NCBI GenBank assembly: GCA_037349105.1
Contig: JAYJMM010000118.1
Span: 1,116,001 to 1,180,000, forward strand
Length of the DNA: 64,000 bases
Reading direction: 5' to 3'
Source of the DNA: Limnomonas spitsbergensis
Lineage: Eukaryota > Chlorophyta > Chlorophyceae > Chlamydomonadales
This document shows, piece by piece, positions 44,421 through 49,879 of the stretch (position 1 is its first letter; the number at the start of each line of letters is the position of its first letter). The notes beneath the pieces are model-generated. The model saw only the letters and a program-made list of their open reading frames with translations. It was not told the origin of the DNA and did no database searches. The translations under genes were made by a program, and so were the position numbers.

Positions 44421-46012
44421 TGACGGGGTTTAGGGTTAAGATGGAGCGCCTGCAGCCCCTGAGGGAAGTGGGATCAATGGAGGCAGGGCGCAGTAAGGGG
44501 GTGCAGGAGGCACGCGGGATCTTTGTTCCTTATACTGCGTGGGCCTGTATTTAAGCCATAAATTTGGCCAAGAAGAAGAAACATACAAGATTCCCACAAG
44601 GCCTTGAGAGGGAGTAGTAAGAAGCCCAAGCCCAACCATCACAGCTGGAACTGTGGGAATGTGAGTATTTTGGGGGTTCAGAGTTTATCTGTAGACTGCC
44701 AAAGAGGTCTGCTGAAAATGAAACCTGACAGACTGGATATCAAGGTTGAGGGCATGTGATAGAACATGGTCTGCTGAGCTTCCTAATAAAAGCGAGGCCC
44801 TACAATGCAGAAGACACCAGCAGCGCGCGTGAGGGTAGTACGAGGGCAACAGGTTTTCAGCCACCTGCCTCGATGAGTGCGCCCAGCCGCTTGGGGCTGT
44901 GACACACCGCCATCTCCTCCAGATACAACGAATGCTCTGATGGTCAGGGGGGCACACAAGCATTGTAGATCAGGACTCTTCAGCCTGCATGTTCCCAGGG
45001 GGCGAACAAAAAATGGAGGAGCTGCGGCTCAAGCTCTGCTTTGCACTTTAGAGAATCATCAGTTTAGCTCTGCTAGGCCTCAGGGTACTCAAGCAGAGCT
45101 ATACCGATGATTCTCTAAACTGCAAAGCATCTCCTAAGGCCCGCCTCTGCATCTTTCAAGAGTTTGGGAAGAAGCGTAGCCTCCAAAGGAAATTTCGCTT
45201 CTTCTCCAACTGTTTTAAGGCGTGTCGCGCTAAAGAGAATAATCGGGACCCGTCTTTAAAGAGTTAGAGAAGAAGCGGAGCATGCCTGAGTAACAACTCT
45301 GCAGCTGTGCCCATGCAGCTCAGCAAGATCGGCATTTGCATGCACAGGTACACAGTAACATGTATATTTTTGAGGCAATATGTGGCATGTGCGAAGGGTC
45401 ACTCTGACATGGTCCATAGAGCAGCTGGGCCCAGGGGCGACTGGTGTGACCATGCCCACAGCCGATTTAACCAGACTGGTAGCTTCTTACCCGTGAGCTG
45501 AACTGCACGCGCTACTTGAATATATTGCCTTGCAACTTTATTGCTCACGACAACGCTCGGTCTGCAAAGCGACCACCTAGATCCTACCAGACCGCTGCCG
45601 GTCCGCATGGTGAGGCGTTGCATCGGCACCCGACTAACCGTGTAAAGTATTTAAAATTATGGAATGTGCTGAAGCGCTCACAGTTGTCAGATACGTTGAA
45701 CAACATGAAATCGTGGGCTGGGCTGACATCCGCCCCAGGTAGGGCCAACGTAAAACCCTAAGGCTTTGTGGCTGATCTCTATCCGCACCGCTCTCGTTTC
45801 CTTCATTCATGATGCTGCGTCTGCATGGAAAACGTGCACTTCGCTGGTCCCAGTCCCATGCCAGGTGGGGAATGGCACACTTCACTGCCGCTTGCCTCGT
45901 GCGGCTCTGCCTTATTTAAACACCCATTCCCTGCCCCCGGCCGCCTTACAGATCTATCAAATTTGCGGGATTGCATCGATCAGGCATAGCGTCCTCATCA
46001 ACGCCAACACTT
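44421..46012. other. Divergent intergenic region
   Basis: Separates the minus-strand plastid-type gene from the plus-strand phosphatase gene. It probably holds both promoters and the unresolved first exons. It contains the hairpin 45038-45128. Near 45942-46012 the frame upstream of the phosphatase ATG is open and Ser/Thr-rich, which could be part of a transit peptide. Confidence 0.35.
45038..45128. repeat. Hairpin, 37-bp arms, 17-nt loop
   Basis: 45038-45074 pairs with 45092-45128 with three mismatches in 37. Arms contain TTTAGAGAATCATC and its complement. Its size and mismatch pattern resemble a small-RNA precursor, but nothing proves expression. Confidence 0.85.
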
Positions 46013-48286
46013 ATGAGTGATATGGCGGATCGAAAGACACAGAAGCAGATCTTGCTCTTGGACGTCATGGTGAGGTTCCGAGCGTCCACTTTACATCTCC
46101 ATTTCCAGTTGTTACATCCCCGGCCGCCCTATTAAGACTTGCTTGTCTATCTGCATCTACAGGAGGCTGTCATACTTGAGCTTCCTGTTGATGAGGATGC
46201 TCCTGGTGATGACTTCAGGACACCATCGTCGTCGACCCGTTCTTCAAGACGATGCCTAAGTTCTTCGGCCTGACGTTTGACGAGCTGATGCGCGCCAAAC
46301 ACCCCAGCGCCTGGGTCGAATTCGAGCGTGGGGAGATCGATCAGTCTGAGTTGTTCCGGAAGTTCTTCAAGGACGGCCGCAGCTTTGACGGAGAAGCCCT
46401 TATGCACACCATGGTGTGTGATGATTTTTCCTCAGTGGAAAGTTACTACATACAGCTGGCTACAAACATCTGTGCCTCTGTGAACGATGCCTCTCTTGAT
46501 TCCTGATCCTGATTTTGATACAAGGGAACATGCCTGCACAACCTGTAAACAGAGCAGGGAGTGACCCAATCACAAATCAGTGCCCTCTCTTGATTTCTGC
46601 TCAGGTAGAAGCTTACGAGTACATCCAGGGCATGGAGAGCCTTCTACAGCGGCTGAAAGATTCAGGGCATGAGATGCACGCGCTGAGCAATTATCCGGAT
46701 TGGTACAGGTGGGGCTGGGCAACCCTGATACATACCTGCTGCTGATGAACTTCATGCTTGTGCTTCGAGTTGTTAGACACCAGCTTGTTGCTGTCATGAT
46801 TTTTGCTCGTCTTGTTCTTTGCACTATATCTACACTAAGTGAACTGGTGTGATTTTGTTATGAATTGCTTGTATGTTGTGGCTCTTGCTGTTAGGTGTAT
46901 TGAAAACAAGCTGACCCTCTCGCGCTACATCAGCTGGACCTTCATCTCATGCACCGGCCCCATGAAGGTAAGATTCCTTAAGGATAATTGTTGCTGATCA
47001 ACAAAGTGACCTAAGTGTGTGCCAATTAATACACACTTTCATGTCATGCCAGTGCCTCCAATATTGCTTTCAGTCCTGACATGCACTGGGGTATGATGAT
47101 TATTATCTTTTGAGGGATACTGTCCCGATCAAAGACGTTCCCATTTGTGAAAATATGTTTTGCTTGAACGCTTGGCTTCTGACCCCCTCGAGTACACTCA
47201 CATCAGCATGCATCCTGTGTAGTGTCCATTGTTTGAAAACTTAAACTAACATGACCACCTGGACTTCACCCAGCAATGGAGGAGTGATGATTTTAATATG
47301 TTTGAGGGATCCCGTCCCGATCAAAGACGGCCCCATTTTTGAAAATATTCTATGCTTGAACGCTTGGCTTCTGATCTCCATTTGCTTAAACGTCCGCTCT
47401 TAACTCCATTAGACCATCACCGGTAGATTTCTTCATGAAATTGTAGTACAAGGTTTCAAAGCCTGAAGCAAGCCGTGTTAAAATATTTTGTCATCATTCG
47501 CCGTCATGTCCCCACCATTGAAGCTTTTGAGAAATGATGATTTTATCTTTTTGAGGGATCCCGTCCCGATCAAAGACGGCCCCGTATATGAAACGATCAA
47601 ATGCTTGAACGCTTGGCTTCTGATCTCAATACGCTTTGAATTCAGCACTCCATGACACATAGATTTGACCTTGAAAAATGTTGTGACTCATGACGCCGCA
47701 AAATATGCAGTAATGCATGTATCTGATCGATTGTTTTCAATTAAGGGCCATAACATTTTCCAACCATCCCGACACCGGTCATTGAGATATGATGATTTTT
47801 ATCTTTTGAGGGATCCCGTCCCGATCAAAGACGGCCCCATTTATGATAAAACCAAATGCTTGAACGCTTGGCTTCTGATCTCCTTCCAACATCATGCTGT
47901 GAAACGCTTCATGACTACAACAGTTAACTGAAGTACTTTGCTATGGTGAAACTTGCTTTCTTGGCAGGGCTTGAGGAAGCCAGATGTCGAGGCATATGGA
48001 GTGGCTGTGAGGGAGCTGAGCACTCCTGCAGGTGCGATACGGAGTTTGCAGTATTGTATGTGCTAATACATTCCAGCCTGGGAATAAACCACCACCAGGA
48101 TATGCCCTGAGTCTGACTCTGCTGATAACATGATTGTTGTCCTTATCCTGTGTAGGCCAGCTAATTTTTGTGGACGACCGCGCAGTGAATGTGGACGCTG
48201 CCCAAGCTGCAGGCCTCGATGGCATTCTCTTCAAGGGCGCGGTTGGACTAGAAGAGAGTCTGAAGCAGCGGGGTCTGCAATTTTGA
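46013..48286 (+). CDS. HAD phosphatase, plant FMN-hydrolase-like
   Basis: HAD-superfamily phosphatase resembling the chloroplast FMN hydrolase (FHY1 type, Arabidopsis At1g79790 as I recall), which would dephosphorylate FMN to riboflavin. Exons: 46013-46069, 46219-46413, 46605-46708, 46895-46967, 47968-48031, 48156-48286. Motif I is LLLDVMDTIV, split by intron 1. Then come FFGLTFDELMRAKHPSAWVE, motif II in HALSNYPDWY, SWTFISCTG, motif III Lys in LRKPD, and motif IV IFVDDRAVNVDAA. In motif I the residue two after the nucleophilic Asp is Met rather than Asp, with an Asp at +3. I believe plant homologues share this. The start is the ATG at 46013, but the frame is open upstream (SIKFAGLHRSGIASSSTP), so a spliced transit peptide is likely. 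Intron 4 (46968-47967) hosts four snoRNAs. Confidence 0.88.
47088..47187 (+). ncRNA. Box C/D snoRNA, copy 1 (intronic)
   Basis: C box ATGATGA at 47093-47099, D box CTGA at 47179-47182, 90 nt apart end to end. The flanks GGGG (47088-47091) and CCCC (47183-47186) form a terminal stem. Guide TGAACGCTTGGCT (47165-47177) ends one base before the D box. It should pair with large-subunit rRNA AGCCAAGCGUUCA and, by the D+5 rule, direct 2'-O-methylation of the second C. The central part has three differences from the other copies (ACTG, GTT). Confidence 0.82.
47275..47382 (+). ncRNA. Box C/D snoRNA, copy 2 (intronic)
   Basis: C box GTGATGA at 47284-47290, D box CTGA at 47371-47374. A seven-base terminal stem AATGGAG/CTCCATT (47275-47281 with 47376-47382) pairs perfectly. 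The guide is the same 13 nt before the D box. The stem sequence differs wholly from the other copies, which supports selection for pairing. Confidence 0.88.
47527..47629 (+). ncRNA. Box C/D snoRNA, copy 3 (intronic)
   Basis: C box ATGATGA at 47534-47540, D box CTGA at 47620-47623, terminal stem TTGAGA/TCTCAA (47527-47532 with 47624-47629). Same guide next to the D box. The central block GGGATCCCGTCCCGATCAAA is shared with copies 2 and 4. Confidence 0.88.
47784..47882 (+). ncRNA. Box C/D snoRNA, copy 4 (intronic)
   Basis: C box ATGATGA at 47789-47795, D box CTGA at 47875-47878, short terminal stem GAGA/TCTC. Same guide. The copy lies about 85 nt before the 3' splice site at 47967, close to the spacing favoured for intronic C/D snoRNAs. 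Confidence 0.85.
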
Positions 48287-49000
48287 GTGCAAATGGGTTG
48301 GTTGGTAGACTCCCCTAGTGTATTTGTACATGTTCTGGTATGGTGTCGTGTCAATCATAGACAACTGCTTCATGTTTGTTTCTTTCACTAATACAATTTT
48401 GGCAGTGATGTATTTGTTTCCATTGTAATGTTCACATGCAATCCCCCCGATAAGCTTCATTGTTGTTGTTGCTAACCGGTAACTGTATTTTTAAACTGCC
48501 TCTGGTGAAGTGGCGATTGAGATATGGTTAATAGTGTATCTGAAGTCCCGGGGCACAGATTCAAAACTAGCAAGCCTTCTTGTGCAGAGCTCAGTGGTGT
48601 AACGACATTGACAGATTCAAACTGATTTGTTCTCCTTTCATGAGGATCATCCCCCAGTCTTGAGACACTAGGACCAAGGTGTGACAACCCACAGTGCACC
48701 AGATTCAACCCGAGACGCGATAACTCTGACTTAACTTACGAGTGACTTGCAATACGTGCCACAAGACAGACCAGGGTAAGATAATCTAGGACATGCTAGA
48801 TCACCAGCCATGCGAGCTGGGCAGGCTAGAACCAGACCACCAGAACTCTTGCCGCAGGGCACAGTTTAAGATCATGGACAGCGCTCCTGAACGAACGATC
48901 GGATTAGTAAGCAGTTGTCTTCATCCCTGGCTTTCCAGTTTAGGCCGCCACCTGCAGGGCCAGGCAACAAGTCCGGTCGAGTAATCGTTGTTATGTCAAT
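48287..49000. other. Intergenic, no gene seen
   Basis: 3' flank of the phosphatase gene. Short frames only. Confidence 0.4.
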
Positions 49001-49879
49001 AACGTCACACCTCTGGGTCCGCCCAAAGCTCTGCCGCGTGGGCGCCCAACTGTTCAGAAGGGAGAAAAGAAGAAACTAAAAGGAAGAGGGGGGAAAGGAA
49101 CAAAAGGAGAGGCCGGGAAGGCAAAGAAGACCAAGTCCGACAACTGAGTTCCACTAGAGTGTAGCCCTGAACAAAGCCTCTAAAAAAATCCACAAAAGCA
49201 AGCGTATCCTACCCCTGCTTGGCCATGAGGGCGCCTCACTGATCAGAAGGGAGCAGAGAAGAAACTAAAAAGGGGGAAAACAACGACAACAAACAAAACA
49301 TGACCAAAAGAGAAGGCCGGAAGGGCAAACGACACCGGCGCCTCAGAATCCCTAGAGACTAACCCTCCACAATGCCCACAGCAGAGTCCACAAAAGCAAG
49401 TGCATCCCACCCCAATCATTGTTATGTGCATGCAGCTTTAGTGACTGAGTGCTATCAGCACTTCGGTGTCCCCGCCGTCTGAAAGTGGATGGGGGGCTGG
49501 ACTTGGGTGATGCAGTCAAAGAGGGCACCATGGCGAAGGATTCCCACATCATGTTGCAGGAAGGTCAGTACCCCAGGGGCAGGGGTTGTTGTTTGCCCCC
49601 TTTTTAGTTTCTTCTCTTCTCCCTTCTGCTCAGTGGGGCGCCTTCGCGGCCAAGGAAGGGTGGGATACGCTTGCTTTTCTGGACTTATCTTTTCTTAGAG
49701 GCTTTGTTGGGGGCTAGTCTCTAGTGGAACTCAGGTGTTGGACTTGGTCTTCTTTGCCTTCCCGGCCTCTCCTTTTGTTCCTTTCCCCCTCTCTTCCTTT
49801 TAGTTCCTTCTTTACTCCCTTCTGAACAGTTGGGCGCCCACGCGGCCGAGCTTTGAGCGGGACCAAAGGTGTGACGTTT
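49001..49879. mobile_element. Foldback (long inverted repeat) element
   Basis: The left arm from about 49001 (AACGTCACACCTCTGGGTCC) is matched inverted by the right arm ending at 49879 (read inward AACGTCACACCTTTGGTCCC). Arms are about 200 bp at roughly 90 percent identity and share GCCGCGTGGGCGCCCAACTG. The middle (49210-49430 and 49580-49690) is a second, more diverged inverted pair related to the arms. No transposase frame is present. Relatives of one end occur at 13150-13305. It sits 154 bp before the TrpRS start. Confidence 0.8.

Follow-up and report, generated by a model that had tools for sequence, protein, structure and literature searches.

Why does a single intron of a protein-coding gene carry four copies of what appears to be one small RNA, and what would those copies do? 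The window, by which we mean the whole 64-kb stretch of Limnomonas spitsbergensis DNA analysed here, contains a six-exon gene, and the fourth intron of this gene holds four units bearing box C and box D motifs. The explanation that best accounts for them, and very probably the right one, is that the four are box C/D snoRNAs, an intronic homocluster guiding one site in large-subunit (LSU) rRNA. The features concerned are as follows.

46013..48286, forward strand: host gene, six exons, HAD family (FMN hydrolase 1-like), 207 amino acids
46013-46069, 46219-46413, 46605-46708, 46895-46967, 47968-48031 and 48156-48286, forward strand: host exons, with GT..AG boundaries and an open frame
46968..47967, forward strand: intron 4, which holds the array; 1000 nt, GTAAGA..GGCAG
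47093..47182, forward strand: candidate snoRNA copy W1; guide 47165-47177, D box 47179-47182, outer stem GGGG/CCCC
47284..47374, forward strand: candidate snoRNA copy W2; guide 47357-47369, D box 47371-47374, outer stem AATGGAG/CTCCATT
47534..47623, forward strand: candidate snoRNA copy W3; guide 47606-47618, D box 47620-47623, outer stem TTGAGA/TCTCAA
47789..47878, forward strand: candidate snoRNA copy W4; guide 47861-47873, D box 47875-47878, outer stem GAGA/TCTC

The gene model was built from sequence alone, and its spliced product matches the Pfam families HAD_2 and Hydrolase, both above their cut-offs. A search against 5.8 billion proteins passed 279, and among the best 120 of these 279 the top match is an unnamed metagenome protein (64%), whilst the best named relatives come from Chlamydomonas eustigma (66%), classed in Chlamydomonadales, and from other chlamydomonadaleans (58-61%). 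Named relatives within the same 120 include proteins of C. incerta, Edaphochlamys, C. reinhardtii and Scenedesmus, one of them named FHY1, with flowering-plant flavin mononucleotide hydrolase 1 at about 50% and bacterial HAD proteins at up to 56%. The look of the locus had at first suggested a grass or another angiosperm, an origin rejected in view of these relatives, which for this one protein point most likely to a chlamydomonadalean alga. A HAD-family sequence with named FHY1 relatives, as membership of FMN hydrolase 1 entails, was therefore found, and the Pfam matches and named relatives agree with the initial annotation of the host, supporting its reading as an FMN-hydrolase-like gene.

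That annotation had also called the host unusual, a view that we would temper. Probably belonging to a green alga, the array is less of an exception than it was made out to be, since intronic snoRNA gene clusters are reportedly extensive in Chlamydomonas reinhardtii, to go by the title of a 2008 paper. As far as the partial sources tell, the array resembles the clusters of C. reinhardtii and rice in that several snoRNAs share one intron of a protein gene, and an excerpt of a rice study describes intronic snoRNA clusters as frequent in that plant (PMC3022908). Within the open-licence literature we found no paper that brings a snoRNA together with FMN hydrolase, although others may exist. Guide RNAs of this kind are ordinarily arranged in this way; the unusual detail is the presence of two further copies, P1 and P2, in a decayed duplicate of the host gene on contig C106.

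Successive C boxes of the array, starting at 47093, 47284, 47534 and 47789, lie 191, 250 and 255 positions apart, and the C-to-D lengths of W1-W4 are 90, 91, 90 and 90 nt. The C box (RTGATGA, as ATGATGA or GTGATGA) and the D box (CTGA) are exact in all four window copies, each of which also carries the 13-nt guide TGAACGCTTGGCT, separated from the D box by a single T. On re-measurement, the coordinates, spacings, motifs and identical guide initially given for a four-unit C/D array all proved correct. Both paralogue copies likewise have box C (RUGAUGA) and box D (CUGA). Pairwise identity between the C and D boxes of W1-W4 is 80-89%, and a central block, TTGAGGGATC..GATCAAAGACG, is almost invariant over the six copies, W1 deviating in the central hairpin. 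No convincing D' box was found by eye in the copies, and a C'-like TGAAAA/TGATAA is present. By every sequence feature examined, the array is of the box C/D snoRNA class.

In RNAs of this class, boxes C and D form a kink-turn to which fibrillarin and the core C/D proteins bind. The boxes of W1-W4, closed by short terminal stems, would form such a kink-turn, each unit being released from intron 46968-47967 after transcription of the host gene and splicing. The four copies would most likely stem from local duplication, raising the dosage of a single guide.

The terminal stems had been said to differ completely in sequence whilst always pairing, and to lend covariation-like support to a structured RNA. 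Pairing was indeed found, with 3-8 consecutive pairs in each of the six copies, but the stems do not differ completely, since W3 and W4 both have GAGA/TCTC. Changes on both sides also stood: alignment pairs 7/105 and 9/103 are paired in all six copies with both sides changed, and pair 5/107 is changed on both sides yet paired in just four of six. The strength of this support, however, is modest by both permutation and shuffling. Overall, 89.3% of cells are paired, a value reached by five of 500 shuffles, and both the covariation score and the count of cells in which the two sides have changed are matched by 11 of 500. The remaining two covariation measures, of five in all, are unexceptional among the shuffles, as many pairs changed on both sides being obtained in 85 of 500 and as many further pair types in 257 of 500. 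When the 3' flanks were permuted, 28 of 720 orders (own order counted) did as well as the copies' own pairing in duplex energy and 20 did so in helix length, and random pairs of intron 12-mers (n = 20,000) form a helix of at least four pairs in 22% of cases and of at least five in 9%. Stem support for a structured RNA is modest because 28 of the 720 permutations equal it by energy and single stems of 3-4 pairs are not unusual for random flanks. The central hairpin is paired in 100% of cells at GGG/CCC and in 93% at CCGTC/GACGG, and it gives little test of covariation because its sequence hardly varies. Whole-unit folding energy gave no signal against shuffles in the six copies (z -1.28 to +1.01); unremarkable folding energy is usual for C/D snoRNAs and counts as no support.

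These stems bear on the question of whether all four copies are alive. Only some might be live guides, the others being snoRNA pseudogenes left by duplication, which would be compatible with the homocluster reading for the rest. W1 and W4 have only four stem pairs in register, the length reached by 22% of random flank pairs, and W1 is also the copy that departs in the central hairpin. We nonetheless consider such a mixture unlikely, as all four retain both boxes and the whole guide even though their ungapped flanks beyond the stems are dissimilar. Mean identity 12-42 nt beyond the boxes is 25% on either side (ungapped; 15 pairs from the six genomic copies), and a gapped alignment finds upstream-flank similarity in two window/paralogue pairs. 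Flanks without ungapped similarity make the duplications look old.

If the array is a homocluster of guides, its target should be legible in rRNA. The guide is fully complementary to AGCCAAGCGUUCA of eukaryotic LSU rRNA in the Rfam consensus, in a duplex of 13 bp, all Watson-Crick, that extends from D+2 to D+14 in five of the six genomic copies, P1 being the exception. Under the D+5 rule this designates the second C of AGCCAAGCGUUCA, with which the guide would pair so as to place a 2'-O-methyl group there; guiding 2'-O-methylation at that C is the reading with the best support. A 13-nt match would arise by chance in rRNA of some 5.4 kb with a probability of about 8e-5 (arithmetic). The target was read from the Rfam consensus, a sugarcane primer and a degenerate rDNA relic of this genome. 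The relic, on contig C93 (locus L021 1061-1544), is a degenerate LSU rRNA fragment scoring 38.6 bits to RF02543 (gathering score 50), and it retains AGCCAAGCGTTCA where the Rfam eukaryotic LSU consensus reads GCaGCCAAGCGUUCAUAGCGACGUuGCUUUUUgAUCCU, so that the site is kept. The sugarcane 25S primer contains GCAGCCAAGCGTTCATAG, according to an excerpt of its source (PMC4060590).

A site in Arabidopsis provides a further indication. Arabidopsis 25S C2837 is methylated, as mapped by RiboMeth-seq, and is assigned to snoR24 (PMC8053127 Table 1). The second C of AGCCAAGCGUUCA would, from the shared guide and D box described below, be the position of C2837. The target given in the initial annotation is supported by four sources: the Rfam LSU consensus, the sugarcane primer, the rDNA relic and the snoR24 assignment. 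The 13-bp duplex is of typical length, because Arabidopsis guide-target duplexes are mostly 10-14 bp (PMC8053127). In the main text of a second Arabidopsis rRNA paper, neither '2837' nor 'R24' appears (PMC8351944).

Across the genome the target 13-mer has 27 exact matches and a reversed control pattern has none. Sorted by eye, the 27 comprise five snoRNA guides, the rDNA relic, 16 members of one dispersed repeat family and five others. The dispersed repeat holds the exact guide-complementary 13-mer within about ccagccccacgcAGCCAAGCGTTCAgcagggcccagcggg (16 of the 27 matches); if transcribed, it could act as a fortuitous decoy or target, the match itself being probably coincidence. A few hundred bases beyond the rDNA relic on C93, repeats with CCTAAACCCT were also seen by eye.

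Assignment to a known snoRNA family gave a divided answer. No Rfam family reached its gathering score in the window or at the C106 paralogue. The best scores below threshold on the array strand were snoZ157 (21.0 bits, threshold 55) and snoR24 (18.2 bits, threshold 38; E 3.8), and the opposite strand scored equal or higher, with the H/ACA family SNORA50 at 24 of 90 bits and TtnuCD29 at 20.2 of 90. A whole-genome search with snoR24 (RF00132) at E <= 0.001 returned no match, and 14 control genomes were silent too. The gathering threshold of snoR24 was thus not reached, whilst its guide and D box are shared: the array has the identical ACGCUUGGCUUCUGA guide plus D box (15 nt) of the plant RNA and would hence address the same D+5 nucleotide. 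It departs from snoR24 in the stretch from box C to the guide, in the greater length of its complement (13 bp) and in having a central hairpin. Because its score lies below the Rfam threshold, we file the array as a C/D snoRNA that would work like snoR24, not as a member of that family. Plant snoZ157/R69/R10 serves another rRNA site. The array resembles it (RF00333) in C/D architecture and in a CUUGGCU core in the guide, whereas the rest of the guide is different and the 21.0 bits fall short of 55.

Both RNAs have a U between guide and D box and both use the D-side guide, which are weak hints of common descent with snoR24. The shared pairing bases say little about descent because the rRNA target dictates them, and the likeness of the guides may reflect either common descent or constraint from a conserved target. 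According to a survey of plant snoRNA families, land-plant snoRNAs are, with very few exceptions, without identifiable green-algal homologues, a limit of the search method being suspected (PMC5122169). The array is probably an algal guide with the same target, guide side and guide-to-D-box base as a land-plant snoRNA, yet it scores far below the Rfam threshold, making it a test case for guide-anchored versus whole-sequence homology search.

The central block may add to the contact with rRNA. In W2, W3, W4 and P1, its conserved UUGAGGGAUC might form a 10-bp helix (8 of the pairs Watson-Crick) with GAUCCUUCGA, a stretch of rRNA located 17 nt downstream of the main duplex; the helix reaches 13 bp in P2 and only 9 bp in W1. 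Within the 3'-adjacent stretch, shuffle p values are 0.016 (W2), 0.014 (W3), 0.018 (W4), 0.027 (P1) and 0.001 (P2), whilst the best helix of W1 in that stretch is a different one (GAUCAAAGA, p 0.076). The last bases of the rRNA used in this test were taken from a mouse 28S probe. Extra pairs of like kind occur at 45 of 104 Arabidopsis sites (PMC8053127), and the extra pairing here is suggestive only.

It could nevertheless be argued that these C/D snoRNAs have another main job, such as a second target of the central block or control of host splicing. The near-invariance of that block over six copies is not required by the guide, and in five of the six its first part can base-pair over 10 bp or more with rRNA lying 17 nt to the 3' side of the target duplex. 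We regard this as improbable: a land-plant guide serves the very site to which the conserved guide here is complementary, the copies are not independent, and with the whole 170 nt of rRNA examined p rises to 0.06-0.34 for the window copies and 0.097 for P1 (0.008 for P2).

The 260-Mb assembly was searched with a 22-base word from the guide (<=1 mismatch) and with one whole unit, and each search returned the same six copies, a lower bound: four in the window and two on contig C106, all of them thus at the two host loci. Four similar copies close together might suggest a dispersed repeat, or a mobile element, with a chance resemblance to a snoRNA, but this is scarcely credible given that so few copies were found and that the boxes and guide are exact.

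contig C106:1821919-1823961 (locus L013 3420-5462): decayed host-gene paralogue with two candidate snoRNAs; in-frame stops

A protein search of the genome listed only the window gene (six exon matches) and the C106 locus (two matches, E 0.18 and 0.91), the first C106 match having two TGA and one TAG in frame. DNA alignment recovers what is left of exons 1, 2, 4 and 6, in their original order and 63-74% identical in the global alignment, whereas exons 3 (42%) and 5 (40%) do not exceed the identity of the non-coding columns (50%), and their alignment may not be genuine. P1 and P2 are 82-90% identical to the window units; snoRNA columns in the global alignment total only 70% (203/289), as C106 lacks an equivalent for two of the four window units. 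Compared at the DNA level, the window and some 50 kb either side of the paralogue share 35 matches, seven falling within the host gene and snoRNAs, and the remaining 28 form no collinear run and are mostly short-repeat-like.

Upstream flanks pair P1 with W1 and P2 with W3, a similarity which suggests that at least two units are older than the host-gene duplication. Unit identity disagrees with this pairing, P1 being closest to W4 (88.9%; W1 82.2%) and P2 to W2 and W4 (90%; W3 84.4%). Gene conversion between copies could have caused the mismatch, and also the likeness of the copies.

One base of the P1 guide is changed (GAACACTTGG), breaking the 13-bp duplex, whilst P2 keeps this duplex, with its boxes, stem and full guide intact. 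The C106 snoRNAs are better conserved than the host exons beside them, and the locus suggests that the snoRNAs were kept whilst the host protein decayed, constraint on the C106 snoRNAs having outlasted that on the protein. More tentatively, the paralogue may now be a non-coding snoRNA host gene from which at least P2 is still made, a possibility that we would not yet favour; if true, a guide RNA has outlived the gene that carried it. The paralogue's snoRNA intron keeps a donor-like GTAAGG, and the idea that its splicing is retained was set aside because the best alignment of exon 5 lies elsewhere than its placement by eye.

Two observations concern the surroundings of the host gene. At 45714-45760, 253-299 bp upstream of the host ATG, lie a site II motif (TGGGCT) and a telo box (AAACCCTA), a layout described, in sources available in part, for angiosperm snoRNA and ribosomal-protein promoters. 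AAACCCTA occurs five times in the window against 1.44 expected (two of 100 shuffles reach five), and neither motif was found upstream of the C106 paralogue (locus L013 2200-3500). As the layout is described in angiosperms and the relatives of the host are green algal, such a promoter was dropped as evidence on the array. Just downstream of the host gene, 48997-49131 and 49747-49878 both match one and the same place on contig C106, with about 88% identity but in opposite orientations; they are apparently two copies of a dispersed repeat that form an inverted pair.
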